From the IMG/VR virus record IMGVR_UViG_3300009094_000043, positions 1 through 36,448 of that record: a DNA stretch of 36,448 nt. One strand, written 5' to 3'. Below are positions 12,152-34,216 of the stretch, piece after piece. A program made the translations under genes and the position numbers. The first letter of the stretch is position 1. Each line of letters opens with the position of its first letter. The DNA comes from a virus. The notes beneath the pieces are model-generated. The model was not told the origin of the DNA. It was given only the letters and a program-made list of their open reading frames with translations, and searched no databases.

Positions 12152-12152
12152 A

Positions 12153-13736: not shown

Positions 13737-14080
13737 TGTTTCGTCAGCATTCTTATTTCCACTTCAACGCTTGTCATTCGCTGTTGTAAGTCTCTGGCGG
13801 TTTCATTGAATCCGCCAATCTGCGCCTTCAGGGATGTGATTTCCTGGTCGTGATACTTGTTCACGATGTCCATTTTGTCGTTCATGCCCTGAAGTTGCGT
13901 TTCCACCTTTTGAAGAGACGCCCCTAGACGCCACACGGCGCTTACCATCAACACAAGGTTGCTAACAATGATTGCTATTATTTGTCCAAGATTCATCGTA
14001 TATGTCATATCTTGGGGGGATTGGTTCTCTCCATGCTTCATGTCATCACAATGACGCCGCTTTCTTGAGGGGCGGGGCAT
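13733..14080 (-). CDS. Membrane-anchored coiled-coil protein (holin/spanin-like candidate)
   Basis: A 115-residue protein. The N-terminus is basic (PRPSRKRRH). Residues about 30-52 ('LGQIIAIIVSNLVLMVSAVW') are one transmembrane helix and residues 55-113 are a heptad coiled coil. AGGAAG precedes the ATG by seven bases. The shape, one helix plus a long coil, is that of class III holins or of Rz/i-spanin proteins, and it lies among the tail genes where lysis genes can occur. No partner endolysin is seen beside it. It could also be a structural anchoring protein. Confidence 0.55.
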   Translation of the reverse strand: MPRPSRKRRHCDDMKHGENQSPQDMTYTMNLGQIIAIIVSNLVLMVSAVWRLGASLQKVETQLQGMNDKMDIVNKYHDQEITSLKAQIGGFNETARDLQQRMTSVEVEIRMLTKQ

Positions 14081-14088
14081 ATCACTTC

Positions 14089-15413: not shown

Positions 15414-15416
15414 AAA

Positions 15417-17048: not shown

Positions 17049-17060
17049 AGTTCATAGAAA

Positions 17061-18292: not shown

Positions 18293-18300
18293 ATTCGCTC

Positions 18301-18492
18301 CTAGTACATTTTCTTCCTCTTCCCGCCGCTGAGCGCGGCGCGCGAAGAAGCTATCGGGTGATTGCTGGCGATTCCGCTTTTAACGGCTGGCTTCTGCGGC
18401 GCTGCGCCTCTGGACACCGTCCGCCCCATCAGCTTGAATCCAGTCTTCAGATTGCTGGACAGATTCGGCTTGCCTATATTTTTCATTGCCAT
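18301..18492 (-). CDS. Small basic protein in head operon
   Basis: A 63-residue protein with many Lys/Arg, Ser and Gly, and no acidic residue. The ATG at 18492 has AAGGAG upstream. Such small basic proteins between capsid and connector genes may bind DNA inside the head or be minor virion parts. It has no match I recognise. Confidence 0.55.
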   Translation of the reverse strand: MAMKNIGKPNLSSNLKTGFKLMGRTVSRGAAPQKPAVKSGIASNHPIASSRAALSGGKRKKMY

Positions 18493-18540
18493 AAATATTC
18501 TCCTTGTGGATATGGGGCCAGTTGCCCGGCCCCTCTCCTG

Positions 18541-19038
18541 CTAGTTCTGTATCAGCACAGTAGCGAAACCGCCCGATGTGGTACTGAGGGCGATTACTTG
18601 CCGCCCGCCAACTACCGCCTCAGCCTCAGCCGGTGCGAAAGTGGCGTTGAAGCCTGTATCGTCCAAAGTGCCCGCCGTACCGGTTGTCCACAGAAGCGCG
18701 CCCGCAACGATGGTTGCAGCCGTCGCCGCCGTCGCCACGCCCGAATAGGCAATCCAGCCAAACTGGTTGGCGGCTATCGTGGTTGGCAAACTGATACCTT
18801 CCACCTTTTGGTTGGCGGCGCTGGAAGCAATGACTGTCGCGTGACGTTCTGCGAGAGTCGCCGTTACGTCCAGACGGACAGCCTGCCCTACCGTCACAGT
18901 ACCGCCAAACTTGCAGTATTTGATTCGGTTGGGCGTGCCCGATGTTCCCCCGCGTGGGTCTTCACAAATCAGCCCCAGAGGAAACTGCGCCACGGTATCT
19001 ACCTGTGTTGGATTTATCCCTAATCTGATATCTGCCAT
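18541..19038 (-). CDS. Capsid decoration/stabilising protein
   Basis: A 165-residue protein of small residues (Ala, Gly, Thr, Val) with beta strands and a 'GTVTVGQAVRLDVTATLAERHATVIASS' segment (about 45-73). The composition and length match phage head-decoration or cement proteins, and it sits 10 bases after the major capsid gene. A very good AAGGAGG site precedes its ATG. It could alternatively be a head fibre base. Confidence 0.65.
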   Translation of the reverse strand: MADIRLGINPTQVDTVAQFPLGLICEDPRGGTSGTPNRIKYCKFGGTVTVGQAVRLDVTATLAERHATVIASSAANQKVEGISLPTTIAANQFGWIAYSGVATAATAATIVAGALLWTTGTAGTLDDTGFNATFAPAEAEAVVGGRQVIALSTTSGGFATVLIQN

Positions 19039-19047
19039 GTTTCCTCC

Positions 19048-20127
19048 TTACGCACCGGCGAAGTTAATGCGCCCCTGACGGCGACGATTGGAAAGAACCA
19101 GATTTCCGTACATCAAGCACTTGATACTGGCCGAGTCCTGATTGTCCGGTTGAATTGGGTCGGTGAAAGTGAACTCGTAGCCCTCGCCAAAAACCATCTT
19201 GGCGTAGTCGAGGTTGAGCGCCACGCAGCCGAAACCAGCGGTATTCGACACCGAACCAGCGGCAACCGACGTGTTGGGCTGCATATCTTCGTCCCAAACG
19301 TGGGGAACGCCCATATAAACCACGTTCTTGAATCCAGCCTGTCCGAGCGCCGCATCCGTGCTGTCCGGCCCGCGAACTATCTGCTGCTTCTGTTCGAGAC
19401 CGTCCAGCAGCACTAGATAAGCCGGACGAACCATCACCACAAGGTGCGGACTGTCAGAACCCGCCATACACGCGACAATCATGCCGCGCAGTCCGGCGAA
19501 GAGGTTGTTGACACCGGCAGGAGAAGCGGCGTTGATGTTCGCCCCGCCCGTCGCCGTGCCCGACAAGCCAAACCCGGTAGTTGTGAAGAACTGATTGCGC
19601 CATGTGGGATTGAGCGCGCTATCCAGCGTCCCATACGTCCCGGTTTGCGGGTCGAACGGGAGCGCCGATTGATAGCCAATCAGAGCTTTTCCACCGTCGG
19701 CTGAACCGTCGGCGGGGAGCGCCTGATTGACCTTGCGCTTCATGGTGATAGCCAAGCGCTGGCCCATCGCGTCCCACAGGTCAATGATTTGGCCTGGGCC
19801 GCTGTTCTGGAATTTCTCAAAGCCTGAAATCTGTTCGACGCCCGCAAGCTGCTTGAACGCGTATTCCGCGCCTGTCGCAACTTCGGTACGGGTCATATCG
19901 AGCGGGTCATATCCGGAATACCACTTGGCGCTAGCGGCATCGTCCAGCATGATTGGCTCAAAGATTGTCTTACCCTGCCGCGTAACTATCCCGCCAAGTT
20001 GCCCAAGCATCCATAAAACTACCTGGTTACTTGTAATGTTGTCAGTGAGAACGCGGCTGAAGTCCGTGAGAGATGTCGCATCCACTTGCGCCCAAGTGGT
20101 GCGAAGCATCGTTCCTGGTACTGCCAT
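19048..20127 (-). CDS. Major capsid protein
   Basis: A 359-residue protein. The N-terminus 'VPGTMLRTTWAQVDATSLTD' and later 'TIFEPIMLDDAASAKWYSG', 'TRTEVATGAEYAFKQLAGVEQIS', 'WDAMGQRLAITMKRKVNQAL' are like HK97-fold major capsid proteins of podoviruses (strand-rich A-domain and spine helix). 'LFAGLRGMIVACMAGSDSPHLVVMVRPAYLVLL' (about 211-243) fits the A-domain core. A strong AGGAG site precedes the ATG. Order scaffold, capsid, decoration is canonical. Confidence 0.8.
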   Translation of the reverse strand: MAVPGTMLRTTWAQVDATSLTDFSRVLTDNITSNQVVLWMLGQLGGIVTRQGKTIFEPIMLDDAASAKWYSGYDPLDMTRTEVATGAEYAFKQLAGVEQISGFEKFQNSGPGQIIDLWDAMGQRLAITMKRKVNQALPADGSADGGKALIGYQSALPFDPQTGTYGTLDSALNPTWRNQFFTTTGFGLSGTATGGANINAASPAGVNNLFAGLRGMIVACMAGSDSPHLVVMVRPAYLVLLDGLEQKQQIVRGPDSTDAALGQAGFKNVVYMGVPHVWDEDMQPNTSVAAGSVSNTAGFGCVALNLDYAKMVFGEGYEFTFTDPIQPDNQDSASIKCLMYGNLVLSNRRRQGRINFAGA

Positions 20128-20144
20128 ATATAGTGTCTCCTAGA

Positions 20145-21038
20145 CTAGATGGGACGCGCCCTGCCAGTCTGTTGGTTATGGAGCATAATTCGGCCTAGCG
20201 CGCCAACGTTCATAAGGCTGGCGGGTAATGCCGGTTCTGCTGCGCCACTGACACCATTACGCGGAGGCAGGCTATGGGCCTGCGCTGCTTTCTGCGCCGC
20301 TTCTTGCGCTGTCATGGTTCGTTGGGCTGGTTTGGCGCTTGGTGAGGGCGCCGCTTGATGAGGTGAGGTGATTTGGGATGATGCCACCCATTCGTAGGCA
20401 TCAGGAATGGTGAACCGTCCGTTGGACTTCGCTACCATTTGCAGCGCCTTGTCCATAAACGGCTTGAAATTCGGGTCGTTACCGTAGTCGGCTAGGACGC
20501 TATTGTACTGCCGGGTATATTCCGCCGACTGCATCGCGTCCCGGTGCGGGTCAAGCGCCGCCTGTACCGACTGCTGCACCGTTGCCTGAATGTAGGCGTT
20601 ATTGAGCCGGTGAAACTCTGCCACTTGGCGCGGCTCGTAGAAGTCGAAATCTTCCGGATTTGGCGGCTGCGGCCCCTGTGGCTGCTGTGGCTGTCCGGCT
20701 AGTTGCCCTTGCGCCATCATCTGCATCGTCTGTTTCAGTTCGGATATTTCGCGGTGGAGCGCGTCGTAGGGCTGCGCCTCCTGGACGCCATTATCGCTCC
20801 CGCGAGGGACGGTAGATTCGATAACCTGTTCCTCTGCCGGCTCTTCTGCTGCTGGTTCCTGTGGAACCCATCTTAACTGGCCATTCTCTTTCCATTCCGG
20901 CTTGTACTCAGGTTGCGCTACTTGCGCCGCCATCCGGACAGTGTGCAGCGATTTACGTTGAACGGGCGCGCTATCCCGCGATGGCCCTTCGCCTTCCGGA
21001 ACCACATTCGAACCGCCAACTGGAACTGTAATCTGCAT
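20145..21038 (-). CDS. Capsid scaffold protein
   Basis: A 297-residue hydrophilic protein rich in Gln, Glu, Pro and Ala, directly upstream of the capsid gene. It has an acidic Pro-rich region, a helical centre ('LHREISELKQTMQMMAQGQL', then 'EVRQ'-like Q-rich stretches) and a basic C-terminus ('NVGALGRIMLHNQQTGRARP'). Scaffolds of this family have this low-complexity, coil-containing, basic-tailed form. No protease was seen. Called by position and composition. Confidence 0.75.
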   Translation of the reverse strand: MQITVPVGGSNVVPEGEGPSRDSAPVQRKSLHTVRMAAQVAQPEYKPEWKENGQLRWVPQEPAAEEPAEEQVIESTVPRGSDNGVQEAQPYDALHREISELKQTMQMMAQGQLAGQPQQPQGPQPPNPEDFDFYEPRQVAEFHRLNNAYIQATVQQSVQAALDPHRDAMQSAEYTRQYNSVLADYGNDPNFKPFMDKALQMVAKSNGRFTIPDAYEWVASSQITSPHQAAPSPSAKPAQRTMTAQEAAQKAAQAHSLPPRNGVSGAAEPALPASLMNVGALGRIMLHNQQTGRARPI

Positions 21039-21118
21039 AAGTCTAATCCCTGCTGTGAAATCGGATTTTATGGGTAAAACTAAACCCTGTCAACAAATGT
21101 GTGTTTTTCTGACACACA

Positions 21119-21532
21119 TCAACTATTCTCACGGATAAACTTCTCGCCGTCTGCGCCGCCAAGCCCCAACCCTGATGGGCCGAAAGTCTTTTCGCTCCAG
21201 CCGCGCACATCCTTTTGGAGCTTTTCCTTTTTCGCCTTCTGTGCGTTGTCGGCAATCTTGTCCCATGCTTCTCTGTCGCTTCTGTCACCGACGGGAACGT
21301 GGTTCTTTTCCTTCATAATGGCCTTAAGCTGACTACTGGATGTGACATACCCATAGTTCGGATGCACATAGCCGTCCCAGTACGTGTCGGGACGCATGAC
21401 GGGCAGCGACCAGATAAGAGGTGACGGCGCGCCGCATTCTGGGCATGCGGCGCGTTCGTCAGCTGGTAGACGCGGCAATAGTTCTTCAAAGTGGTTGCCG
21501 TCTACCGGACAGTGAAATTCGTAGAGAGGCAT
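21119..21532 (-). CDS. FmdB-like zinc-ribbon protein
   Basis: A 137-residue protein. The N-terminus 'MPLYEFHCPVDGNHFEELLP...ACPECGAPSPLIWSLP' is that of FmdB/regulatory zinc-ribbon proteins. The first knuckle normally reads CxxCG; here it is CPVDG, so the second Cys is replaced by Asp and zinc binding would be altered. The second knuckle CPECG is intact. The rest is a charged helix. Such proteins occur in the late genes of several phages. Its role is unknown. Confidence 0.7.
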   Translation of the reverse strand: MPLYEFHCPVDGNHFEELLPRLPADERAACPECGAPSPLIWSLPVMRPDTYWDGYVHPNYGYVTSSSQLKAIMKEKNHVPVGDRSDREAWDKIADNAQKAKKEKLQKDVRGWSEKTFGPSGLGLGGADGEKFIRENS

Positions 21533-21535
21533 GGC

Positions 21536-21751
21536 TTAAAAACGGCCCTCAAGAGACGCGCAGTGATTCGCCTGCATTCGTGCTTCTGACAGTTTGCGAA
21601 TAGCAACCGTTTTACCCGGCCCTTCAGGCAGTGCCGCGTTCAACAACTGCGCGCATCCCAGAAACGCGGCGTTGATTTGGTCGTATGTTACGCGCTGCTC
21701 TTCGGTTGGCGCGTGATAGCTAAAAATGTCTTTCAATTGGTCGTCTGTCAT
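21536..21751 (-). CDS. Acb2/Tad1-hairpin-like small protein (candidate anti-CBASS/anti-Thoeris sponge)
   Basis: A 71-residue protein matching from memory the small phage proteins now grouped as the Acb2/Tad1 hairpin domain (previously an unnamed family). Signature positions seen: F10-S-Y12-H13-A-P15, Gln19, Tyr23-x-x-Ile26, Pro42-Glu-Gly, Lys47-Thr48-x-Ala50-Ile51-x-Lys53-Leu54-x-Glu56-Ala57-x-Met59-x-Ala61-Asn62. Acb2 sequesters cyclic di- and trinucleotides made by CBASS; Tad1 sequesters Thoeris signals. The gene has an AGGAGGAAAC ribosome site, the strongest in the area. It sits in a non-structural insert within the head operon. I cannot tell the ligand. Confidence 0.65.
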   Translation of the reverse strand: MTDDQLKDIFSYHAPTEEQRVTYDQINAAFLGCAQLLNAALPEGPGKTVAIRKLSEARMQANHCASLEGRF

Positions 21752-21759
21752 GTTTCCTC

Positions 21760-22338
21760 CTAGTAGCGAAAGCCTGCGCCCGCGCCGTATTTGTGAGTGG
21801 ACGAACCCGCGAAGCCCTGCGTAAATTCGTACTCAAGAAAGAATGGCCGCACAAAGAAATGTCCCAGATTCACATCCGCGCCCAATTGATAGCGGCGCAC
21901 GAAATGACGCGTGGAAACGTCGGTCGGATTCCTGAACCCGAACAGCGCAGTAGCGAACGGTTCAACCGGGCCAGCTTTGTAGCTGAGCCGTGGGCCGAAT
22001 GAATAGGTGTCGGTATCGCGCTGCACTACGTCGAACATTGCAGCGGAAGTAGGAAGCGGCGACATAACCGGATACGTCTCCGGGTCAAGCTGCGTCACGT
22101 CGAAAGTGCGCTGAAAGTTGAAGACGCCGCCGAGACGGAAGCCGCCCCTGCTGATAATCTTGCCGTCCACGTCAATCCAAAAGCCATTCAGATATTCGGC
22201 AACTTCGTTCGGGTCGAATTTAAACTCGCTGCCGACGTAGCCGACTGACAGCTTGATTTTGTCGTTTGATTTGTCCTGCGCGAACGTCGAAGCGGCAAAC
22301 GCAACGACGAATGTGAGTGTGATGATTACTTTTCTCAT
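21760..22338 (-). CDS. Outer-membrane beta-barrel protein with signal peptide
   Basis: A 192-residue exported protein. Residues 1-20 are a signal peptide (Lys-x-x-hydrophobic core 'VIITLTFVVAFAASTFA', cleavage after FA before QD). The mature part alternates polar and hydrophobic residues in strands ('KIKLSVGYVGSEFKF', 'GFRLGGVFNFQRTF', 'YSFGPRLSYKAGPVEPFATALFGF', 'RYQLGADVNLGHFFVRPFFLEY') and ends '...GAGAGFRY', the terminal aromatic needed for barrel assembly. An 8-strand barrel of the opacity/OmpA-like kind is likely. It is unrelated to the head and is probably a lysogenic-conversion or exclusion cargo gene. Confidence 0.7.
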   Translation of the reverse strand: MRKVIITLTFVVAFAASTFAQDKSNDKIKLSVGYVGSEFKFDPNEVAEYLNGFWIDVDGKIISRGGFRLGGVFNFQRTFDVTQLDPETYPVMSPLPTSAAMFDVVQRDTDTYSFGPRLSYKAGPVEPFATALFGFRNPTDVSTRHFVRRYQLGADVNLGHFFVRPFFLEYEFTQGFAGSSTHKYGAGAGFRY

Positions 22339-22356
22339 TCCTTCTCCTGTTAAGTG

Positions 22357-22611
22357 TTAAGCGGCAAGAATGCCGATTAGCTGTTTTTCGATAGCTATAA
22401 AGCCGTTAGCCGTGCAGTCGGCGCTGTAGATAACCGGGACGCCGTTAATCACAACGCTTTTGTAGCCCCACTCAGCAAGCCGGTGGTCGGCTGGAAGTCC
22501 AGCGTCTTCCAGTTCACGATATGCGCCTTCGCTTACGACTATCAGCCCGTAGCGGCCCTGAAACGCCGGACTTGTAGTAAATCTCTCTATCACTTGCTGC
22601 GTTGTTGGCAT
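22357..22611 (-). CDS. Small hypothetical protein
   Basis: An 84-residue protein with an alpha/beta pattern ('GRYGLIVVSEGAYRELEDAGLP', then 'GYKSVVINGVPVIYSADCTANGFIAIEK'). GGAGAAAG precedes the ATG. The second half resembles short surface-type phage proteins, but no family was recognised. It is between the portal and the outer-membrane barrel, so it may be the first gene of the accessory insert. Confidence 0.55.
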   Translation of the reverse strand: MPTTQQVIERFTTSPAFQGRYGLIVVSEGAYRELEDAGLPADHRLAEWGYKSVVINGVPVIYSADCTANGFIAIEKQLIGILAA

Positions 22612-22628
22612 TCTTTCTCCTTAAGCGG

Positions 22629-24527
22629 CTACTGCATAAAGCCGCGCATTCCCTGCATTAAATCCGGCTGTGAAAGCCCTTCACCCGGCGCGCCAACGCC
22701 CGGCGTTTGGCCGACAGGCGACGGCGCAAACGCCCCGCCTATCTCTGGCGTCATCCCTGCGCCTTCCGTCGTCGGCATAGGTGTACGCGACGAGCGGAAG
22801 AATCGGCCAATATCCTTCTCGCCAAACTTATCCAGAACCCAACCGACGAGCGCGGGCATATTGAACGTATCCGGCGCTCCGGTTTGAGCTAAGACAGGTA
22901 GTGACTGGACGGCAAGCTGGAATATTTGAAGCGCCTGCTGCTTCTCCAAGTCGGGGTCAGTCTTCGGCGCCGCGAAGTACTCAACGTCTACATCCGCGTC
23001 GTCCTGTATCTGCTCGTTGGTGTACTCCTGCCACTGCGCGCCGTCCGGTCCGACAATTTCTATCGCGTCGGCCACGGTGCGGTGTTTCTTCAGGTGATGT
23101 AAGACTTGCCGCGCGATGTCTTCCACGAACTCCTCAAAGTCTTCCACATGTTGGTCGAGCTTCAACCCGGTGAGTCTTGCGCGTGTGCCGATTTCCCCTG
23201 CCGTGGTTCGGGACGGCAAGCGCCCACCCTGCAAGAGCGCGTCGGCCCCGGTCATCTCTTCGATGGCGCGCTGAATATTGGCCTGAATGATTTGGAAGTC
23301 CTGCGGCAGATTCGGAAGTTGAATCGCCTGAATGTCCCCGACAACAAGGTCATCACCGGCTAAGTATTTCGCCACCTCTTCGGGGTTCGTCCCTTCGCTC
23401 GCTTTGAGCCGTGGCCGACTCTTGCGCGCCACGTCCTGCTCAAGCGTGGCCATTCTGTTCAACTGTATCTGCTGGTCTTCAATCCACGCGGGAAGCCCCA
23501 GGCCATAGGGTTGGTTCGGGACTTCAATGTAGTTGTCCATCGCATACGGAAACTTATCCAAGTAGTCGTATGGCCATTTCTCGCTGAGCAACGGACGCGG
23601 GCAACCGTCGGGGTAAATCATGTGGTTTTTGGTTTTCCAGTCCCAAATCTCTATCAGCGCAACTAGATTGTCCTCCGGCAGCGTGATGCCCTGCATTGCC
23701 TTCATTGCGCGCGGGTCGAGGCCCAACATCTGCCACGCGGCCATCGTTGAAACTGAGGCGTCGCCGCTCCGTATCAGTCCAAGCGTTTCCTGGTCATAGG
23801 ACTTGTTCGACAGCACGTCGGTGAACGGGACGAAGAAGACTTCAGCGCACCAGCGCGCCGTGTGCAGCGAGCAGTCCTTACCTGACAGGTCGAATAGAAA
23901 ATTAAGCGGGTTGACGCGCTCGATATAAGCCGCGTCTTTCTTCACGTAATCGGCGTAGTTGATTGTCTCGCCTTTGGCTTTGCTCTCGTCCACTTCGACG
24001 GTGTAGCCGCTCTTGGCAACGCAGTGGCCAATAACCAACAGGTCACGAGCGCAGGCTTTCATGGCGCGCGTCATGTTCCGTTCGCGCCATTCATAGTTGA
24101 GTAGCGCCTGCTGAATCTTCACGCCAAGATAGTCATCATCGGTTGGACGCTGAGCCTTTAGTAGAAACTTTATCTCGTCGTTTATCAGAAACGGCACGAT
24201 GCTGTTGATTATGCTCCCGGTTTTGTTCACGGTCGCCGTGTCGCGCGGGTTGTCGCTGTTGGGCTGGCCTCCGCTGCTTCCCCTGTCGTTCCATTGTTCT
24301 CCTTCATACCAGAGGTAGTATCTACGCCAATCCTTTTCCCCATTGCGCCGTTCAGCGCGCGCGCGGCGCATCATCGCAATGCGAGCCAACCAAATCTCAC
24401 CATCAAGTTTCGGGTCGCCTGTCTCGGTTCTATGATTGACGAGCGCGCGTCGGACGCGGGAATTGCGCGTAACCGCAGGGCCGTCAGGGAAGAGAATTGG
24501 AACTGTTACTTTCTTTTTACGTGGCAT
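22629..24527 (-). CDS. Portal protein
   Basis: A 632-residue portal, ring-forming channel for DNA packaging and exit. The N-terminal half has 'DWRRYYLWYEGEQWND...DTATVNKTGSIINSIVPFLI' (about 65-120), typical of P22-type portals, then 'CAEVFFVPFTDVLSNKSYDQ' (about 230-250). The C-terminal third has 'TGADALLQGGRLPSRTTAGEIGTRARLTGLKLDQHVEDFEEFVEDI' (about 433-480), the conserved crown and stem-proximal motif. The tail is Gly/Pro-rich. The start codon lies right after the terminase stop with AGGA in the terminase end as ribosome site. Size fits P22-like portals. Confidence 0.85.
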   Translation of the reverse strand: MPRKKKVTVPILFPDGPAVTRNSRVRRALVNHRTETGDPKLDGEIWLARIAMMRRARAERRNGEKDWRRYYLWYEGEQWNDRGSSGGQPNSDNPRDTATVNKTGSIINSIVPFLINDEIKFLLKAQRPTDDDYLGVKIQQALLNYEWRERNMTRAMKACARDLLVIGHCVAKSGYTVEVDESKAKGETINYADYVKKDAAYIERVNPLNFLFDLSGKDCSLHTARWCAEVFFVPFTDVLSNKSYDQETLGLIRSGDASVSTMAAWQMLGLDPRAMKAMQGITLPEDNLVALIEIWDWKTKNHMIYPDGCPRPLLSEKWPYDYLDKFPYAMDNYIEVPNQPYGLGLPAWIEDQQIQLNRMATLEQDVARKSRPRLKASEGTNPEEVAKYLAGDDLVVGDIQAIQLPNLPQDFQIIQANIQRAIEEMTGADALLQGGRLPSRTTAGEIGTRARLTGLKLDQHVEDFEEFVEDIARQVLHHLKKHRTVADAIEIVGPDGAQWQEYTNEQIQDDADVDVEYFAAPKTDPDLEKQQALQIFQLAVQSLPVLAQTGAPDTFNMPALVGWVLDKFGEKDIGRFFRSSRTPMPTTEGAGMTPEIGGAFAPSPVGQTPGVGAPGEGLSQPDLMQGMRGFMQ

Positions 24528-26480
24528 TTACATTCCTGGGACTCGTAAGCCTCTAGTTCTTGCTAGCCTGTGCGCTTCCCAGGCGAATGAACCGCGCGGT
24601 ATCGTCTCGCGCGGCGGTGAAAAGCGGTGGAGATGTTTCTTCATGTGGCGAGCTATCAATGCGGCGGATACGAAGTCGTCCTTGCTGCCCGCCGCGCCGC
24701 CGAACTTGCCGTTCTTCAATTCCTGATAGCTCTTTAGCTGGTCAACTAATGACTTTTCGTGTATCGAGCGGAAGAGTATGGCGTGGTCGCGTATGTCTGC
24801 GGCCAGGTCCGATATGAGCTTGCTTTTGCTGTCGGCTGACACGTTGAAGCCGGGGGGCGCATTCTTTTTTGTCTTCCCGGTGAACATGTCGCGCGGGTAG
24901 TACAGGCGCGGATAGCGCCATACCTTTTGCAGGTAGTCGTTCACTACAGCGCCGCCCCGTTCGTTATGTTCGACGGCTAGCAGGGCGTCGTCATACAGTC
25001 GGCCCAAATAGTTCAGCATTTCCGCGAAGTCGTAGGGGCTGATGACAGCGTTAAAGCTGGCGACTTCTTCTACTTCGTCGGCTGAGATAGCCAGCACAAG
25101 CGCCGCCGATGGGTCAGCCTCGGCGGACATTCCCATTGACGTGTCAGCGCCGATAACGAAGGATGTATGCTGCTTATCGAACTCCCCTGGTAGTCGGTAG
25201 AAGTAGACTTTCCCGTAGCCGTCGGCCCGGTGAAACTTCCGGTTTGGATTTATCTGGTCGTCGTCCTGAACGAACTTGCAGCGTATCGGGGTGTACCCTT
25301 CAGCCTGAACATAGGAGCGCATCTCTTCGAGGCTTTGGTGGTCGAATAGGTTCTTTGCGCTTGTGGCGAACGCGTCCGCGACAGTGGTCGGGTATTCATG
25401 CTTGAACACCTGCAAGCTGCCGAGACACTTAACGTCAATTGCGCGCCGCCGCCAATGAAGACGCAGCCGAACTTCCTCTTCTATCCACTCTTCCCCACCT
25501 TCGCCCATTTTCTCTGGATACCAAATAGGCAGGGCTTCGCGGATATGCCGGGACTCTTCTATCTCGTCGCCGTATCGGGAATCGGGGTCGGCGGATAACT
25601 CCCCTAGCTTGTCGTAGGTTAGCTTAGCGGTCCTGTACTCATCGAACGCGCACCACGGTATGAATACTTTTCTATAGCCGTTGTTCTGGTCGGTCCACCA
25701 TTTAGTTGCTTCGTTTTCCCCTTTGGCCGTGGACTCCATAATTATCATCGTCCCGGCCTCGTCCGACATCACCTGAAGCAGTCCACCCATCTGGTCGGTT
25801 ACGTCAACGCCAACTTCCGGCCACAGCGCGAACTCTGACAGCAAGACGCCGTGGAAGTTATAGGAGCGGCCAAGCTGCCCCGACTGCGCCGTCATAAAGA
25901 CTAGTTTGCTTTCGAGTCCGACGCTTGCGCCGCGCCTCCGTTCGTGCGTGGTGGAGCCGAAGTACACCAGGTCTCGTCGGCTAGTGTGACAGCCGGGGCG
26001 CAACATCGGGTGCAACTGGTTGTGCATTGCCCGCAAGCGGTTGTTGAAGTCGTAAGTACTGGACTCTTTGTTGGCGCATATCAAGACTTCGCGGTTCGGA
26101 CGAAGGGAAGTCAACCACAGGAACAGCGCAAGCCAGAATGTCGAGACGCCCTCTTGTCGGGCCTTCAGGATGAACCAGCGCACGGGCCGACGGGCTGCAA
26201 GGTCTTCCACTAACCATTCCCACATTCGCCGCTGGATGCGGTTAAGTTTCAGCCGGACGCGCTTGCCGCCTTTGGTTTTGATGAAGACGTTTATAGCGGC
26301 CCAGACAGGGAAGTCCCATTCAGATAGTTCATGGAAGCGGCGCTGGATGTAGCCTTCGGGGTCGGCGTCATATAGCGCAAGTTCTCGTTCCACGCGCGCA
26401 GGGTCCGGCGTGGCCATTCGGATAGCGTCGGCGGTAACTAGCGCCGCGCTGTCACTGGTTGTCGGCGTCGAAGTCTCCAT
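24528..26480 (-). CDS. terL: Terminase large subunit
   Basis: A 650-residue packaging motor: ATPase plus nuclease. The Walker A is 'KARQEGVST' (106-114), the variant form used by large terminases. The Walker B region is 'GVLLSEF' (211-217), preceded by 'GQLGRSYNFH'. A coupling 'MESTAKGE' motif follows (about 250). The nuclease domain has 'FVIGADTSMG' (about 442-451), 'LAVEHNERGG' and 'KDDFVSAAL' near 607, giving the acidic metal-binding set. The gene overlaps the small-subunit candidate by 29 bases. Packaging type (headful or cos) cannot be read directly. Confidence 0.9.
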   Translation of the reverse strand: METSTPTTSDSAALVTADAIRMATPDPARVERELALYDADPEGYIQRRFHELSEWDFPVWAAINVFIKTKGGKRVRLKLNRIQRRMWEWLVEDLAARRPVRWFILKARQEGVSTFWLALFLWLTSLRPNREVLICANKESSTYDFNNRLRAMHNQLHPMLRPGCHTSRRDLVYFGSTTHERRRGASVGLESKLVFMTAQSGQLGRSYNFHGVLLSEFALWPEVGVDVTDQMGGLLQVMSDEAGTMIIMESTAKGENEATKWWTDQNNGYRKVFIPWCAFDEYRTAKLTYDKLGELSADPDSRYGDEIEESRHIREALPIWYPEKMGEGGEEWIEEEVRLRLHWRRRAIDVKCLGSLQVFKHEYPTTVADAFATSAKNLFDHQSLEEMRSYVQAEGYTPIRCKFVQDDDQINPNRKFHRADGYGKVYFYRLPGEFDKQHTSFVIGADTSMGMSAEADPSAALVLAISADEVEEVASFNAVISPYDFAEMLNYLGRLYDDALLAVEHNERGGAVVNDYLQKVWRYPRLYYPRDMFTGKTKKNAPPGFNVSADSKSKLISDLAADIRDHAILFRSIHEKSLVDQLKSYQELKNGKFGGAAGSKDDFVSAALIARHMKKHLHRFSPPRETIPRGSFAWEAHRLARTRGLRVPGM

Positions 26481-26787
26481 CCTCTTCCGCGTCTATCACT
26501 GCGCTTGCGGTTATTTGCGTCAGCCCCGCGAGCGGCCCTGGCTGCAACGGCGCGCCCTCTATTAACTGGTTGAATGTCGCCTGAACCTTGACGGATTGCG
26601 TTTTCATTCCGCCGCCAATTTTAAGTATTAGTCCGATAGCTGTAAGCGCGGCCTTGTCGTCTTCGCCCTGAAGGATTGCTGCGAGCCTGTCCATTGCCGC
26701 GCCGTGAAGGGATAGCGCGCGAGTCTTCGTAGTCTCTTGAATATCCCTTGCTACTTCCTTGCCGCAGGGAACTAGCGCCTCGCTCAT
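26452..26787 (-). CDS. Probable terminase small subunit
   Basis: A 111-residue protein directly before terL. It is helical in the middle ('SLHGAAMDRLAAILQGEDDKAALTAIGLILKIGGG', about residues 26-60), with a strand 'KTQSVKVQATF' and an acidic tail. Small terminases often have such a central helical oligomerisation core and an acidic C-terminus that touches the large subunit. No N-terminal HTH is present; the neighbouring gene 26784-27062 supplies an HTH, so the two might share the job. Called mainly by position. Confidence 0.5.
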   Translation of the reverse strand: MSEALVPCGKEVARDIQETTKTRALSLHGAAMDRLAAILQGEDDKAALTAIGLILKIGGGMKTQSVKVQATFNQLIEGAPLQPGPLAGLTQITASAVIDAEEDGDFDADNQ

Positions 26788-27062
26788 TCGCCCTCCACGT
26801 CAATTTCAATCATTACCCGACGGCGCGCGCCAATGGCTTTCAGCAGCTTGTTTCCCGGTTTTCGCTTCCCGGCAATCAGTAAGTCAATAAACTGCCCGGA
26901 TACGTTCAGCCGTCTACCTAACTCCGCCTTGCTCCCCACGTCGTGCGCAAGCCGCGCAAGGTGTTCTTGGAACCTATCCAACTCAAGTAAGAAAGTGCGG
27001 CGAGCGCCACTTGGGGGCAACTGCGGAGTTAAAGCGCTGGTTTCGGGTGTTGTTTCGCTCAT
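26784..27062 (-). CDS. Small Cro/C1-type HTH protein at head of packaging genes
   Basis: A 92-residue protein with a helix-turn-helix at about 46-65 ('KAELGRRLNVSGQFIDLLIA') followed by 'GKRKPGNKLLKAIGARRRVMIEI'. The same arrangement (HTH, then R/K-rich linker with EPG or KPG, then a short helix and strand) is seen in the protein at 3668-3874. The start overlaps ATGA with the next gene. It may be the DNA-recognition part of packaging, or a late regulator. AAGG lies before the ATG, and a perfect TTGACA stands upstream with a weak -10. Confidence 0.65.
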   Translation of the reverse strand: MSETTPETSALTPQLPPSGARRTFLLELDRFQEHLARLAHDVGSKAELGRRLNVSGQFIDLLIAGKRKPGNKLLKAIGARRRVMIEIDVEGE

Positions 27063-27371: not shown

Positions 27372-27596
27372 CTATTCGGTGTCAACTTCTTCTTGATATA
27401 ACCACTCTTCGCGCAGCCCCTTCTCGTAAGCCCGCCTCCATGCCTGCGCCGCCGTGCGTCCAATGGCTACAACTCTGCTGCCTGGACTTAGTCGAACTTG
27501 ATACTCGTTCACGCCTTTCGAGTAGTCCAGCCCACAAACTGCCTCCGGGTATACCTCGATAATCCAATCTTTTTCGCCTGGACTTTGCCTTCTCAT
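27372..27596 (-). CDS. Small hypothetical protein
   Basis: A 74-residue protein, alpha/beta, with 'DWIIEVYPEAVCGLDYSKG', 'YQVRLSPGSRVVAIGRTAAQAWRRAYEKGL'. The second part resembles the 'G.TA..AW..A' ending of small phage proteins that handle host functions. It is the last gene before the intergenic zone. Its start overlaps ATGA with the previous gene. No family is sure. Confidence 0.55.
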   Translation of the reverse strand: MRRQSPGEKDWIIEVYPEAVCGLDYSKGVNEYQVRLSPGSRVVAIGRTAAQAWRRAYEKGLREEWLYQEEVDTE

Positions 27597-27835
27597 GCCA
27601 CCTCCGCAAGCCTAACCGCCGCCGCCGCCAAGACGGCTGGCACCGGGGATAAAAGCGCCTCTATCTTCTCCGCAATCCCTTTACACTCAGAATCAACTTC
27701 CCGTAGCTGAAGCTGTCGAATATGGTGCAGCGCCTCCAATATCCTGTCGGGCACATCCACGACATCTAGGCTGGATTCCGGCTTGCTTTCTGTGGAATCG
27801 GAGTAGTTTAAAACTGACAATCCCTTCTTGGACAT
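27593..27835 (-). CDS. Small hypothetical helical protein
   Basis: An 80-residue protein with a good GGAGAA ribosome site. Its 5' 143 bases overlap the end of the zinc-finger gene in another frame. The centre is helical ('DRILEALHHIRQLQLREVDSECKGIAEKIEALL') and the end is hydrophobic Ala/Val ('VPAVLAAAAVRLAEVA'). Function unknown. Either this gene or the end of the zinc-finger gene may be shorter than drawn. Confidence 0.5.
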   Translation of the reverse strand: MSKKGLSVLNYSDSTESKPESSLDVVDVPDRILEALHHIRQLQLREVDSECKGIAEKIEALLSPVPAVLAAAAVRLAEVA

Positions 27836-28385
27836 CTCGGTTCTCCTTCAAAAGTTCGTGTAATGCCAGCGGGCCGAAGTAGCACGCGACTGGCCTAACT
27901 TTCCGCTGGCAATCAGCGCATTTTGTACGCCAAAGTATCTGATAGCCGTGAACTAATTTCAGCCGCTTTTTGCCCCTGTATTCTACCTCAATCTCGGCCT
28001 TTCCGTGCGGCGTTGAAAGCTCATAGCCCTTTGGATACGGTGGCCTCAATCCTGAATGCGTCCAATCAGTTAGGGTAGCTTTGCCAGTACTGGCATTTTG
28101 CTGTTTTGCCAGTACTGGCATTTTAGCTGGCGGTTGTGATTTGCCAGTACTGGCAAACGGGAGAACATTTGCCGATTTGCCAGTACTGGCAAGAGGCGGT
28201 TTGCCAGCCGCTACTTCACCATCAGGACGCCCGCCAGCGCCAGACAGATTAGCGCCCAAGTTATCCAGAACACCAGGCCGAGTGGCCGCTTTCTCATGCT
28301 GCGCCTCCTGTTCGGGTTGTCCCGCCGCCATCGCTTGTCCCTGTGCGTGCGTGGCGGCTGCTATTTTCCCACTTGGTTTGGCCAA
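27693..28385 (-). CDS. Zinc-finger protein with low-complexity N-terminus (Q-like position)
   Basis: A 230-residue frame with a TTG start at 28385 (AGAGG four bases before); an ATG at 28331 is the alternative. The first 105 residues are Ala/Gly/Pro/Lys rich and contain the four palindromes. The second half looks folded: 'KAEIEVEYRGKKRLKLVHGYQILWRTKCADCQRKVRPVACYFGPLALHELL...PRCRGCARQ', with CxxC pairs at 'CADC' and 'CRGC' that would hold one zinc. Location before the packaging genes and a zinc-binding tail recall antiterminator-type late regulators, but this is only an idea. The last 143 bases overlap the next gene. Confidence 0.5.
   Translation of the reverse strand: MAKPSGKIAAATHAQGQAMAAGQPEQEAQHEKAATRPGVLDNLGANLSGAGGRPDGEVAAGKPPLASTGKSANVLPFASTGKSQPPAKMPVLAKQQNASTGKATLTDWTHSGLRPPYPKGYELSTPHGKAEIEVEYRGKKRLKLVHGYQILWRTKCADCQRKVRPVACYFGPLALHELLKENRDVQEGIVSFKLLRFHRKQAGIQPRCRGCARQDIGGAAPYSTASATGS
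28082..28191. repeat. Four identical 14-bp palindromes
   Basis: TGCCAGTACTGGCA occurs at 28082-28095, 28107-28120, 28142-28155 and 28178-28191. Starts are 25, 35 and 36 bp apart. Flanks extend to TTGCCAGTACTGGCAA in copies three and four. Three copies encode ASTGK in the overlapping gene; the copy at 28107 is read in another frame (MPVLAKQ), so the DNA sequence, not the peptide, is conserved. Confidence 0.9.
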
Positions 28386-29038
28386 TTAACCTCTGTCTGC
28401 TGCTGCAGGTGGTCGGCTATGCCGTCAAAGTCCCGGTCAATGTCTTCCTTGTTGAGCATCTTCATTCCGACGAATCCAAGGCACAGAATTGACGCAATCA
28501 TGATGAGAGCGTACATGCCGCCGTTGAGATACCAGAGCGGGAAGAACGAAGTCGCCTTAATGGCTTCGTCTCGCTTGTTGATGGTGTCCGCAAGAAGTTT
28601 TTGCGCGTTTGAGTTTGCTTTGTTGGCTGTCGCCATGCGCTCTTTCTGCGTCCGGCCTACTCCCTGCTCCTTGCTCATTTGAGTAAGCGAATCGCGCAGG
28701 CGTTTTTCTTTGTCGTCCTGCACGATGGCCGCTTCGTCCAGGCCACGCAACGCACCGGTGTGAAACACAATCACGATGGCCAGCGCGCAGGCGAGAATTA
28801 GTGACCACTTGCGGACGTTGATATGGATGCTGAAGCATTTAAGCACCGTCAGCGCCAATACGGCGAACTCGCCGGCGCAGGCGCCCGCTTTGGCGGCAAG
28901 GCGGTATGTCGGCTGAAGGCTATCAATGTGCTGCCAGAACGCGGAGAGCGACCACGCGCAGAGAAAGCCCCAAAGGCCGATGAAGATTACAGCCATCCAG
29001 CCGCGCTGCGAAAGCAGGGATTCTTTTTTGGCTTGCAT
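28361..29038 (-). CDS. Four-TM membrane protein with a coiled-coil loop
   Basis: A 225-residue inner-membrane protein. Hydrophobic helices lie at about 13-35, 47-69, 78-100 and 165-195, with a long charged coil between helices three and four (about 105-160, 'KEKRLRDSLTQMSKEQ', 'KLLADTINKRDEAIK'). The last tail 'NKEDIDRDFDGIADHLQQQ' is cytoplasmic. The ATG has GGGGA upstream. The coil loop and topology are found in some exclusion and sensor proteins. No family was recognised. The structured leader just before it suggests regulated translation. Confidence 0.65.
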   Translation of the reverse strand: MQAKKESLLSQRGWMAVIFIGLWGFLCAWSLSAFWQHIDSLQPTYRLAAKAGACAGEFAVLALTVLKCFSIHINVRKWSLILACALAIVIVFHTGALRGLDEAAIVQDDKEKRLRDSLTQMSKEQGVGRTQKERMATANKANSNAQKLLADTINKRDEAIKATSFFPLWYLNGGMYALIMIASILCLGFVGMKMLNKEDIDRDFDGIADHLQQQTEVNWPNQVGK

Positions 29039-30170: not shown

Positions 30171-30656
30171 TCATACCTCCTCGTCAAAGAAATCCTCTTC
30201 CAGTAGTCGCAGCACTTCGCCCGCGCCTTTCTCGCGCATTCTCAGCAGCGCCTCTGCCCATGTGGAAGGCTTCAGTCTAGAAAACTTGCCTAGTGGCATC
30301 GGGTCAGGCCATAGCCGCCGGACTCTCACCATCGCTATATCTGGAACGCTCCTGCATCCCGGATTAGGGGAATCTCCAAGGGTGTAGAGGACGCAGGCCG
30401 CTGGCAGATTGGCCATCTTCGCTAGGTGCTGTATAACTGTGCTTGGCTTCCAGTCTTTACCTTGGTCAATGGCTGTTTCGATGAGTGCAACAGGGAATTT
30501 GGATTTATCGTCGTACTCAACGTACAAAGAAACATCCAAGTCAATCATCGCTAGCAGTTGAGCCTTCTCTAGTCCGATGTAGCGTGCGGTACTGGCCCGC
30601 CTGTGCCATAGCGAATAGGACTGGTCGCGGAATCCGTAAACTTCTTCATGTGCCAT
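30171..30656 (-). CDS. Conserved phage protein, unknown (possible nuclease-like fold)
   Basis: A 161-residue protein. The start at 30656 has GGAGG eight bases before it and is preferred over an ATG six codons further up. The text 'YSLWHRRASTARYIGLEKAQLLAMIDLDVSLYVEYDDKSKFPVALIETAIDQGKDWKPSTVIQHLAKMANLPAACVLYTL' is the sort of conserved alpha/beta protein seen in replication regions. The D-x-D...E-x-x pattern with 'ALIETA' loosely recalls PD-(D/E)xK nucleases, but the Lys is missing. It overlaps the methyltransferase end by 11 bases. Confidence 0.55.
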   Translation of the reverse strand: MAHEEVYGFRDQSYSLWHRRASTARYIGLEKAQLLAMIDLDVSLYVEYDDKSKFPVALIETAIDQGKDWKPSTVIQHLAKMANLPAACVLYTLGDSPNPGCRSVPDIAMVRVRRLWPDPMPLGKFSRLKPSTWAEALLRMREKGAGEVLRLLEEDFFDEEV

Positions 30657-31947
30657 TAGCGACCCTCCACACAATGATTTCCCGCGTTAGTACCAAGCAA
30701 CGCTTATTCTCTTTGGCCCACTCCACCATCTGCGCGTTGCACTGCTGCGACTCGTAGGGAACGCTGAACCGCATATCAACCGGGAGTTTGACGGCGCGGA
30801 GCATGTCGCCTACGTGGTCGGTGAATTGACGCTCCGGCGCCTTCCACTGCGTCGGCTGGATTATCAGCGCGATGTAGGCGCCGTCTTCATTCGTGAGTTT
30901 CTTGGCGAATCCGTTGATAATGTCGGCCAGCGTCTTGTTGAACTGGTCGAGTGGCATATTGGCCAGGTCTGTCGGGTCATCACTGTATTCGCCTGCGGCC
31001 TGCTTCCAGTACGGCGGGTCGAGATAGACGAGGCGGACATCTTTCCACTGCGGCGGCTTCGGTAGTCCTTCCGTCAGGTCGTGCGCCCGGATTTCCTTTT
31101 CGCGCTCAACGATTGGCTTGCGGTCGGAGACGTAGTAGCGGCGGAATCGCTTGCGGCAAAGGTCAACGGTAGAGCCGCCGCCTGCGAACGGGTCAATTAC
31201 AACGTCAAATGGCCTTGTGTAGAGATACAGCAGATTGTCGAGCCAGCGTATTTCCGAGTTGCCGAAGTGGTTCGAGCCGGATGTTTTCTCTTGTTGCTTC
31301 CAGATATTGTAAATCGGGGCGTGGAAACTCTCGTCGGCGTGCTTGGCTTGAGTTTTATGAAATTCGGACATCTGTCCAAAATTCATAAATTCTTCAATCC
31401 ACTTCGAAACCGTTCCTTGGTCGAGTGTAAGCTCGGCGCTTATCTCTTGCTGTGTGGCACATGCAAGCCACATATTGAACGCCTGCTTACGTGCGCCTTC
31501 TTTCTTTTCCTTCTTGGTGCGTGACAGGAATCGCTGAATCTGTTTTGCGCCGACACTTAAGATTCGTTGTAGTTCGCCCTCTTTCGCGGCTTGCTCTTTC
31601 GCTGGCGTACCAAGCCAAATCTTGATAGCCATATTTTCCTTATCATCAATCGAAAGCTGTATGCCGTGTTTAGCGTTACGCTCGATTGCTAGTTCCAAGA
31701 AGTGGACATCGCTCTTTGTCTCGGTGAGGATTGCTCGAATCGTCTCAACGCCGTTCTTCTTGTGCGCTGTCCACCGATGCCAGCCGTCTATGAGTTCGTT
31801 ATGCTGGTTGACTTCGATAGGTGGAAGAACGTCCAAGTCTTCCGCGTACTTCTGCACCGTGACGGCGCTGGTTTCGATACGTGGATACAAATCGTCTCTG
31901 AAAACCACGTCTGCTGTTTTAATTGTTTTATGTCCGTTATTGCTCAC
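30646..31947 (-). CDS. ParB-like / HTH / DNA methyltransferase fusion
   Basis: A 433-residue three-part protein starting at GTG (31947) with GGAGG before it. Residues 10-100 are a ParB N-terminal domain with 'ELIDGWHRWTAHKKNG' (the GxHRxxA nucleotide motif at 55-61). Residues 125-190 are helix-turn-helix rich ('ATQQEISAELTLDQGTVSKWI'). Residues 200-433 are a DNA methyltransferase: SAM motif 'DPFAGGGST' (252-260), then 'DPPY' (310-313), the order of the alpha/Dam-like amino-methyltransferases. No cognate restriction gene is present. It could protect phage DNA, mark the origin, or read its own sites. Confidence 0.8.
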   Translation of the reverse strand: MSNNGHKTIKTADVVFRDDLYPRIETSAVTVQKYAEDLDVLPPIEVNQHNELIDGWHRWTAHKKNGVETIRAILTETKSDVHFLELAIERNAKHGIQLSIDDKENMAIKIWLGTPAKEQAAKEGELQRILSVGAKQIQRFLSRTKKEKKEGARKQAFNMWLACATQQEISAELTLDQGTVSKWIEEFMNFGQMSEFHKTQAKHADESFHAPIYNIWKQQEKTSGSNHFGNSEIRWLDNLLYLYTRPFDVVIDPFAGGGSTVDLCRKRFRRYYVSDRKPIVEREKEIRAHDLTEGLPKPPQWKDVRLVYLDPPYWKQAAGEYSDDPTDLANMPLDQFNKTLADIINGFAKKLTNEDGAYIALIIQPTQWKAPERQFTDHVGDMLRAVKLPVDMRFSVPYESQQCNAQMVEWAKENKRCLVLTREIIVWRVANGT

Positions 31948-31967
31948 GCGTCCCTCCTTCTCCTGCT

Positions 31968-32309
31968 TTATTCGTATCGGCCCGCCAAGCCCATCTCAGC
32001 GACCATCACGCGGGCCAATGTCTGATAGGCTGATAATTCCGCCTGTATTGCGCCTACGTTCAGCTTCGCCGCTTCGCGCAGCGCGTCGGCTGAGTGCGCG
32101 GCGTACATCTCATTGCTGCACACTCTGTCAACGTGCGCTTTCTTTTCAGGGATAGTCCCTTCGGCCTGTAGAAGCGCGACGGCTTGCGCCTTGCGGTATT
32201 TCTGGTCAGCGACGGCCCATTCAGTGGCCAGCGGTTCAAGCTGACTGCGCGCGACTCTGAGTTCTTCGACGGCGGCTAGGATGTTGTTTTCAAGTTCTTC
32301 TTTCGTCAT
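31968..32309 (-). CDS. Coiled-coil protein with 'AEGT' motif
   Basis: A 113-residue helical protein. The text 'VADQKYRKAQAVALLQAEGTIPEKKAHVDRVCS...AHSADALREAAKLNVGAIQAELSAYQTLA' is a conserved small phage protein found next to replication and recombination genes in diverse phages; its function is not known. It starts two bases after the small gene upstream and has no ribosome site of its own, so it is probably coupled. Confidence 0.7.
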   Translation of the reverse strand: MTKEELENNILAAVEELRVARSQLEPLATEWAVADQKYRKAQAVALLQAEGTIPEKKAHVDRVCSNEMYAAHSADALREAAKLNVGAIQAELSAYQTLARVMVAEMGLAGRYE

Positions 32310-32311
32310 AG

Positions 32312-32482
32312 TCAGTTCAGTTTTGCCGCCTCAAGCTGTTTAATCTTTCGCACTATCTGGCGCTTCATTTTGTCCAGCGGCGCCACAAGACGCGCTTTAA
32401 TCGCTGCCGCGCGCGCCTTCCTGCGTTCAAGTTCGTCCAGCATTCGCGCTTCCTGCTCAGTCATAATCCGCTCGGTTTCCAT
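32312..32482 (-). CDS. Small basic helical protein
   Basis: A 56-residue protein, starting at ATG 32482 after GGAGG and ending with TGA two bases before the next start. The sequence is one charged amphipathic helix (begins METERIMTEQEARMLDELER). It could be a coiled-coil partner of the gene at 31968 or a nucleic-acid binding peptide. Its size and clean ribosome site support a real gene. Confidence 0.55.
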   Translation of the reverse strand: METERIMTEQEARMLDELERRKARAAAIKARLVAPLDKMKRQIVRKIKQLEAAKLN

Positions 32483-32495
32483 AAGACCTCCGTTG

Positions 32496-33329
32496 TTAGC
32501 TGCGGGTTGTTGGCTGCCAGTCCCGCAGGCGGGTCATGGCTTCTTTGACTTCTTCGGGCATTGCTATTTCTTCTTCAGCCGGGGGCAGGGCAGTGCGGTT
32601 GCGCGCCTCCTGCATCATTCGGCGTTGACGGTCGAGCGACCTAAGCGCCATGTCGAATCCGCCTTCAAGCAATCGGCGGGATTCCTCGGCTAGCTGGCCC
32701 TGCGCCACGTTGAATGTCAGTGAAAGCTCAATCGTCCTATCCGCGCCGACGAATAGCACCGGCTGCTGCAGCGTCGGCATGCGCTTGGCCCAGGTAGCGC
32801 CCTGTTCACGCATTGACATTTCCGAGAGTCCAGCGCGGTAGAGTTCAACTTCGCGGTTGCTGTTCAGCGCGGCGGCGTATTGGCGAAGGAATGACTTCTG
32901 ATAGCTGGCTAGCATTTCGTCGGTGCAGCCGGTCACTTGCTTCCCGCGCTCATTCGTTCCACCGGCGGAGAGGAGGCGGCAGGCTTCCAGCCAGCTACCG
33001 AATACGGCGTCCATGGCGGCGGCTGTGGCCCTGTCGGAGAACTTGACGGAGGCTGTCCCGCCATTCGCTGCGGCTTCAAGGAATGCGGCCCAGGCGTTCG
33101 CGGCCCTGTCTTCGGGGTTGCCTTCGATTAGCTCACGAAGTTCGGCTGGTTTGGGGAAGAACTTCCTGGTATCAATGGCCAGTTCTACAGCGGCCTCAAC
33201 TTGCTCAATGGTGAACTCCCTCAGGGCGCGGAAGTATATTTCGCCCAATGCGTCACTAATCGGCTTGCCGTAAGTCTCACTTAGGAGCGACAGTTGTTTT
33301 GCAAATTCCACTGAGTCCCTGTCAGTCAT
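32496..33329 (-). CDS. Helicase-loader-like replication protein (lambda P position)
   Basis: A 277-residue protein directly after the initiator, with an ATGA overlap (33326-33329). The N-terminal 60 residues ('KQLSLLSETYGKPISDALGEIYFRALREFTIEQVEAAVELAIDTRKFFPKPAELRELI') have the helical domain with 'FFPKPAEL', shared by phage helicase loaders and replisome-organiser partners (lambda P / G39P-type). The middle and C-terminal parts are helical. An 'O-P' pair is the expected replication module of a lambdoid phage. The exact family is not confirmed. Confidence 0.65.
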   Translation of the reverse strand: MTDRDSVEFAKQLSLLSETYGKPISDALGEIYFRALREFTIEQVEAAVELAIDTRKFFPKPAELRELIEGNPEDRAANAWAAFLEAAANGGTASVKFSDRATAAAMDAVFGSWLEACRLLSAGGTNERGKQVTGCTDEMLASYQKSFLRQYAAALNSNREVELYRAGLSEMSMREQGATWAKRMPTLQQPVLFVGADRTIELSLTFNVAQGQLAEESRRLLEGGFDMALRSLDRQRRMMQEARNRTALPPAEEEIAMPEEVKEAMTRLRDWQPTTRS

Positions 33330-34216
33330 ATTTTCTCCTTCGCCATGTGGCGTTTCACGAACCCGTCAAGCGCGGCTATGGTCTGCTGCGCGGCGGGTGA
33401 GAATTGGGCGAGTGCGCCGTTGCCGGTGCGCCCGTTTACCTTCGCTATGAACATTTCGACGTGCTTCACATCTCGGCAAATTAGCTCGATGTCGTCCCAT
33501 ACCGTCCCCTGGTCGTTCTGGCCCATGTGGTACGGGGAAGAGGCGCACCCGTCTATCGCCTGCTTGATGTCCTCCACCGAGAACTTGTCCTTCAGGCGAG
33601 CTTTAATTTTCTTCTGTCGGTCTTGCGAGAACTTGGCCTTCGGATGGTTGAGTCTTGATTGCCAGTATTGGAAGATTTCCTGAACTTCAGGTGAGGAAGC
33701 GGTGCCGTCCGGCGTGCCGGACATGTCTTTGTTTCTCTCTGTAATATCTCTTCTCTGTATTATGTACTTATCTGTTTTATATTGGTGTTGGTTTACCACA
33801 TCTGGTTCAGCCACTTCTGGTTCAACCACATCTGGCAAATCAACATCTGGTGCCACTTCTTGGTTTGCCGCATCTGGCTGGCTAGCATCTGGTTCTACCA
33901 GTTGTTGGTTTTCAGCATATGGTGTTTCATAGACTGACGTAATCCACCGAACGAACCTTCCCTTGTCCCGCTCCTCCGTCCGGCTGGCGTACCTGTGCGG
34001 GATAAAAATCTCATTGATGATGTGATAAGCCTGGGACCGGCCCACGTCTTTGAAGCGTCGGCAGATGTCGTCAACGGACGGCTCCCAACTGTCTGGTTTC
34101 GATAGTAGGTAGGCGAGTACGCCAAGTGCGCGGGCGCTAAGGTTGGTGTCCTGGGCCGTGGACCGTAGTAGCTGGAAGAACGGATTCTGCTGGTTGTGAG
34201 GTGCGCGGATAATCAT
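33326..34216 (-). CDS. Replication initiator, lambda O-like with winged HTH
   Basis: A 296-residue initiator. Residues 10-75 are a winged helix-turn-helix ('LSARALGVLAYLLSKPDSWEPSVDDICRRFKDVGRSQAYHII'). A variable linker (about 105-145) made of 5-residue units (EPDVV, LPDVV, EPEVA) is encoded by 15-bp DNA repeats. The C-terminal part ('FSVEDIKQAIDGCASSPYHMGQNDQGTVWDDIELICRD') is the domain seen at the end of phage DnaD/O-type replication proteins. By analogy it binds the repeats inside its own gene and recruits the loader encoded next. ATGA overlap couples the two. Confidence 0.8.
   Translation of the reverse strand: MIIRAPHNQQNPFFQLLRSTAQDTNLSARALGVLAYLLSKPDSWEPSVDDICRRFKDVGRSQAYHIINEIFIPHRYASRTEERDKGRFVRWITSVYETPYAENQQLVEPDASQPDAANQEVAPDVDLPDVVEPEVAEPDVVNQHQYKTDKYIIQRRDITERNKDMSGTPDGTASSPEVQEIFQYWQSRLNHPKAKFSQDRQKKIKARLKDKFSVEDIKQAIDGCASSPYHMGQNDQGTVWDDIELICRDVKHVEMFIAKVNGRTGNGALAQFSPAAQQTIAALDGFVKRHMAKEKI
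33727..33897. other. ori: Predicted replication origin: 15-bp iterons plus AT-rich region
   Basis: Repeats of the form CCACATCTGGTTCAG have TCTGG cores at 33801, 33816, 33831 and 33846, a 12-bp irregular step, then 33873 and 33888; the period is 15 bp except for one 27-bp step. An AT-rich stretch (about 33727-33790) lies next to the first repeat. All of it is inside the initiator gene, as with lambda ori in gene O. Confidence 0.7.

Follow-up and report, generated by a model that had tools for sequence, protein, structure and literature searches.

A perfect 14-bp palindrome, TGCCAGTACTGGCA, is repeated several times around the start of a small phage gene. Such a locus raises the question of whether it is the DNA word or the encoded peptide that has been kept, and, if it is the DNA, what reads it. 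Here, we examined these questions in the window, that is, the whole stretch of 36,448 nucleotides, which is a virus record in its full length and carries an end repeat of 123 bp, and in the relatives that could be found for it.

The palindrome array and the start of the Cys-rich gene

An exact-copy search of the window identified exactly four copies of TGCCAGTACTGGCA, all of them within positions 28082-28191 and with start-to-start spacings of 25, 35 and 36 bp, in agreement with a preliminary description of this DNA. That description had noted no other copy in the window, and none was present elsewhere in it at 0 or 1 mismatch. When up to three mismatches were allowed, eight matches were observed in the window, compared with a mean of 1.4 and a maximum of 5 in shuffled sequences (none of 100 shuffles reached 8). 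The four copies and their surroundings are as follows:

28082 to 28095: palindrome copy 1, TGCCAGTACTGGCA, within the Cys-rich gene; reads ASTGK on the minus strand; invariant in the relatives G001 and G002
28107 to 28120: palindrome copy 2, spanning the conserved ATG; reads MPVLAK on the minus strand
28142 to 28155: palindrome copy 3; the open frame includes it, but the gene probably starts downstream of it
28178 to 28191: palindrome copy 4, probably intergenic, 19 bp past the stop of the small membrane-peptide ORF
27693 to 28121, minus strand: Cys-rich gene, encoding a 142-aa basic protein with two CxxC; most likely start ATG 28121; conserved in G001 and G002
27593 to 27835, minus strand: gene for an 80-aa acidic helical protein, with an AAGGAG ribosome site upstream; conserved partner that overlaps the Cys-rich gene by 143 bp
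28211 to 28297, minus strand: ORF for a 28-aa peptide with a single TM segment and an AGGAGG-like ribosome site; bounds the array upstream
28361 to 29038, minus strand: gene for a 225-aa membrane protein, the upstream neighbour; in G001 and G002 a membrane protein occupies this place as well

In the open frame that covers the array (27693-28385, minus strand), the peptide is ASTGK for copies 28082, 28142 and 28178, and MPVLAK for copy 28107, so that the earlier account of three copies with one peptide and a fourth in another frame was correct for this frame. However, several features suggest that the gene begins inside the array. ATG 28121 is the only start codon common to all three viruses, and copy 2, read on the minus strand, begins with the T and G of this codon, whereas the N-terminal extension above it was not conserved as protein. 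Substitutions between the window and G001 below ATG 28121 were distributed as 8, 9 and 29 over codon positions 1, 2 and 3, and this excess at third positions indicates that the Cys-rich gene is coding; the corresponding counts upstream, within the array, were 1, 4 and 2 (Fisher P about 0.1, with small numbers), and those between the window and G002 were 7, 8 and 9. Just upstream of the array, the 28-aa ORF (28297-28211) uses a different frame from the open frame 28385-27693, and its equivalent in G001 (46 aa) also has a strong ribosome site. No good ribosome site was observed before ATG 28121 in the window and G001. These comparisons suggest that the open frame above 28121 is probably not translated. 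The previous statement that the palindromes are inside a gene thus holds for copy 28082, which is wholly in the gene, whereas copies 28142 and 28178 are probably upstream of it and copy 28107 probably spans its start. The idea that a low-complexity N-terminus served as host for the cluster is weakened too, because the conserved start falls inside the array.

Conservation of the array and its module in related phages

To define the distribution of the array, 2.9 million viral contigs were scanned for two TGCCAGTACTGGCA copies 5-35 bp apart. Only two other viral contigs matched, G001 (34,543 bp) and G002 (23,964 bp, incomplete), giving three independent viruses with the array. Both relatives contain exactly four copies, with the same spacing of 25, 35 and 36 bp and at the same gene as in the window, and each carrier has one array locus per genome or contig. 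In a gap-free alignment of the 110-bp array from the three viruses, all 56 site bases were invariant, versus 23 of 54 spacer bases (Fisher exact P = 5e-13); the window-G001 pair alone gave a P value of 5e-4, and the spacers of the window and G002 were identical at 26 of 54 positions (about 48%). Zero variation was found at synonymous positions across the 12 palindrome copies. The earlier proposal that the DNA word is kept, not the protein, is strongly supported by this difference between sites and spacers and by the identical spacing: the palindrome has stayed constant while the protein and the spacers drifted, and no relative was found in which the peptide was kept and the palindrome lost.

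Scattered copies of the word were lacking as well. The two-copy TGCCAGTACTGGCA pattern was also looked for in bacteria and archaea, and none of 84,980 genomes matched it. The 16-mer TTGCCAGTACTGGCAA was found in only 14 stretches among the 2.9 million viral contigs, two of which came from the phage group of the window, and this rarity gives little sign of a host motif common in phages. Protein searches for more relatives yielded only G001, G002 and one further contig (G015) among viral contigs, and none among genome contigs or in the phage collection. A blastn search of the cluster against plasmids and phages produced chance-level matches only, and a literature search for the palindrome word found it only in an unrelated plant paper and in similarly incidental texts. 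Because the sites are invariant, the spacers have drifted and close-set copies are lacking in bacterial and archaeal genomes, the DNA word is, on the sequence comparison, under strong purifying selection, and the array is very probably a protein-docking array, not a protein repeat. It is also rare: its carriers form a small group of phages for which metagenomes are the only source, and they are presumably soil phages, judging by their IMG sample numbers.

The unit conserved in the three viruses comprises the array, the Cys-rich gene and the 80-aa gene. The Cys-rich proteins of the relatives were 86% and 65% identical to that of the window from MPVLA onward, and the 80-aa proteins 69% and 64%. 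This module has been inherited together, though G002 shares few other genes with the window, from which it is largely different outside the module, and has another late-gene arrangement. Neither protein had a significant match in Pfam, PHROGs or NCBIfam. In a PDB search, the 80-aa protein matched only coiled coils or designed helices and the Cys-rich protein matched nothing; the structure model of the latter was unusable (pLDDT 44).

Several other observations were made on the layout of these genomes. Both frames of the 143-bp overlap between the Cys-rich and 80-aa genes (27693-27835) are conserved in the three viruses. The late-gene block (8313-27062 in the window) is inverted relative to the early operon when the window is compared with G001 and G002, and the similarity between the window and G001 breaks at 27593, the end of the 80-aa gene. 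The additional contig, G015, carries the same module as G002 (at L013) and stops about 0.1-0.2 kb short of the array, inside the Cys-rich gene, perhaps owing to a chance assembly break.

Candidate readers of the array

Since identical sites have been kept, their binder should itself be conserved. Three candidates named previously were rejected on this basis. The ParB/HTH/methyltransferase fusion has no match in G001, although the sites are identical there. The small HTH protein (26784-27062) is 32% identical in G001, where it stays next to the terminase, at a distance of about 16 kb from the array. As for a replication factor, the O-like initiators of the window and G001 are different proteins, and the gene in G001 carries GGTAGCAAAAATGCTACC iterons of its own. 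It should be noted that, at nearby places in their operons, the two viruses carry ParB-like plus methyltransferase proteins whose sequences are unrelated (30646-31947 in the window; 31491-32603 in reverse-complement coordinates of G001).

The reading that we put first, with some hesitation, is an autoregulatory, operator-like array whose reader is a dimeric product of the module itself; this reading may well be wrong. Each perfect palindrome would represent one dimer site for a sequence-specific DNA-binding protein, a dimer being suggested by the dyad symmetry of the sites. We favour a binder from within the module because the array and its two genes are co-inherited while the other proposed binders are not conserved. 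Within this module the array appears to straddle the start of the Cys-rich gene, and the palindromes adjoin or overlap the conserved ATG 28121, as expected of an autoregulatory operator. The most likely binder is predicted to be the Cys-rich protein, alone or with its 80-aa partner, which would act at this single locus and block or tune its own expression within the leftward operon. Binding of a protein, the identity of that protein and its effect on transcription are what we infer from this arrangement. Some observations count against such an operator: no family or fold assignment marks the Cys-rich protein as DNA-binding, and a simple repressor would not usually have four strong sites whose helical spacing is non-integral. 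A promoter search in and beside the array gave one match, which was at chance level and not kept in G002. The reader may instead be a protein encoded in the missing part of G002, or a host protein. Overall, with so few carriers of the array, confidence in the mechanism is moderate to low.

Arrays of TGCCAG-N2-CTGGCA or CCAGTACTGG recur in unrelated phages. Three CGCCAGTACTGGCG and one degenerate copy are located in an HTH_36 initiator gene and read in two frames (L031), two CCAGTACTGG lie in a DnaD/O-like gene (L032), and two TGCCAGATCTGGCA were found at a further locus (L050). In another contig (G016), four TGCCAGC[AG]CTGGCA sites occupy one locus (L049, 1201-1474), apparently between genes and near a terminase-like gene. 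At L026 (G008), TTGCCAGTACTGGCAA and a one-mismatch copy are 36 bp apart in a putative winged-helix gene, although in the model of its protein (pLDDT 34) only the order of secondary structures is winged-helix-like. In L048, a 50%-identical relative of L026, both centres have changed from GTAC to AGCT together, with the arms kept, and this concerted change supports the idea that in arrays of this kind the copies are sites which have to agree with one another for their reader. The palindromes of L047 and L048 (relatives of L026:898-1992) are likewise 36 bp apart, with the 4-bp centres changed jointly and the neighbouring bases the same. No Cys-rich homologue was detectable in the look-alike genomes, in a search without a positive control. 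The apparent connection of these look-alikes with initiators, which was noticed post hoc, keeps both a replication role and a decoy role under consideration.

A replication-related array, either a second origin or the iterons of an initiator-type winged-helix protein, appears unlikely. Same-core arrays are present in initiator-type genes of phages elsewhere (L031, L032 and L026), and the lambda origin consists of four 19-bp repeats inside gene O (PMC4488673). However, the initiators of the window and G001 differ, and the G001 gene has seven iterons of another sequence. The O-like gene of the window has its own repeats, beside one of the AT-richest tracts (about 33741-33923), and the minimum of GC skew is near 33-34 kb, not 28 kb. 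No AT-rich tract lies beside the array, around which the AT fraction is 0.25-0.60; such a tract is found at about 33741-33795 instead. The repeats of the O-like gene (33795-33923) are directly beside this tract, at the cumulative GC-skew minimum, and by sequence features of this kind the region 33741-33923 is likely the replication origin of the window phage. In G001, the O-like HTH_36 gene (L007:3683-4576, plus strand) contains seven GGTAGCAAAAATGCTACC-type inverted repeats that are read in three frames, and by analogy it is a lambda-like origin with its own iteron sequence.

We consider it unlikely that a host-encoded regulator, for example one of the LuxR type, reads the array. The arms TGCCAG/CTGGCA do match an RhlR-bound site of P. 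aeruginosa, CTGCCAGATCTGGCAG (PMC10732425), and such a binder would need to come from the host because neither a LuxR-type HTH nor a GerE domain was found in the window. On the other hand, the array sites are without the flanking C and G that belong to the RhlR box and to the CTG-N10-CAG ends of LuxR-type boxes (their flanks are mostly T or A), the two-copy cluster occurred in none of the 84,980 bacterial and archaeal genomes, and the 16-mer is rare in viral contigs.

It is likewise unlikely that the copies form an RNA element in which any two of them pair in the leftward transcript, thereby hiding the ATG in copy 2 as a translational or RNase switch. Folding of the minus-strand RNA gave a predicted energy of -61 kcal/mol (z -10) for the window and one of -67 kcal/mol (z -9) for G002, and the start codon is within or beside a predicted hairpin. 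However, the predicted pairing differs between the two viruses (copies 4:3 and 2:1 in the window; 4:1 and 3:2 in G002), and Rfam gave no match above gathering scores. RNA pairing would also tolerate G-U or compensatory changes, none of which occurs in the 12 copies, and it needs inverted repeats only, not individually palindromic copies; recognition of DNA by a symmetric dimer would thus be the simpler explanation.

A partition, packaging or recombination site seems very unlikely. A single-locus cluster of identical dyad sites might be expected of one, and the array of the window is about 1.6 kb from the terminase large-subunit gene, but in G001 the terminase genes are about 14-16 kb from the array, with the late block inverted relative to it. 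A scan of proteins recognised no ParA, and the phage has an integrase. A pac site in particular was rejected, as in G001 there is no linkage to the small terminase gene (the G001 array is about 16 kb from the terminase-side HTH gene).

It is highly improbable that the array serves as a decoy, imitating the iterons of another replicon so as to titrate away the initiator on which a competing phage or prophage depends. This reading was considered because the exact 16-mer and the 36-bp spacing are common to the array and to the initiator-like gene of an unrelated phage (L026/G008), and ectopic lambda origins are known to arrest lambda replication in the laboratory (PMC4488673). Finally, the view that the copies are a protein repeat (ASTGK) whose identity as DNA is incidental, or that they were duplicated recently, deserves almost no credence: three of the four copies encode the same peptide, but the same DNA word is used in a second frame, its synonymous positions are invariant in all 12 copies and the spacers are only about 48% identical.

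Comparison with known systems

The locus provides a clear case of a DNA signal in which no letter has changed, although the phage gene that it lies in and next to is drifting. Two small proteins without a family match are tied to the array, and naming the binder would name a new phage DNA-binding module.

Among known arrangements, the multi-site autoregulatory operator of a small regulator or a toxin-antitoxin-like pair has in common with the array that palindromes straddle the start of a small gene which overlaps a second small gene. The array differs from it in its four exact copies, in their wide, non-integral spacing and in the lack of a known DNA-binding domain, and the one promoter match was at chance level. 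The LuxR-type (RhlR) box shares the TGCCAG..CTGGCA arms, whereas the centre of the array sites is TA instead of AT, the flanking C and G are missing and no LuxR-type protein was found in the phage.

The resemblance to a lambda-type origin extends to four dyad-symmetric sites of similar size in a cluster of about 100 bp, which overlaps coding sequence and is kept as DNA. In contrast to that origin, the array is found at the Cys-rich gene, which has no initiator family match, and not in an initiator gene (the O-like gene is at 33326-34216); it has no adjoining AT-rich tract, and the initiators of its carriers are different proteins with their own iterons. The arrays of HTH_36/O-like initiators (L031, L032 and the G001 iterons) sit in initiator-type genes, whereas that of the window is at the Cys-rich gene. 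In these arrays, too, in-gene palindromes are read in more than one frame, and those of L031 and L032 have the CCAGTACTGG core. That TGCCAG-N2-CTGGCA arrays turn up again in unrelated phages points to a common solution for recognition.
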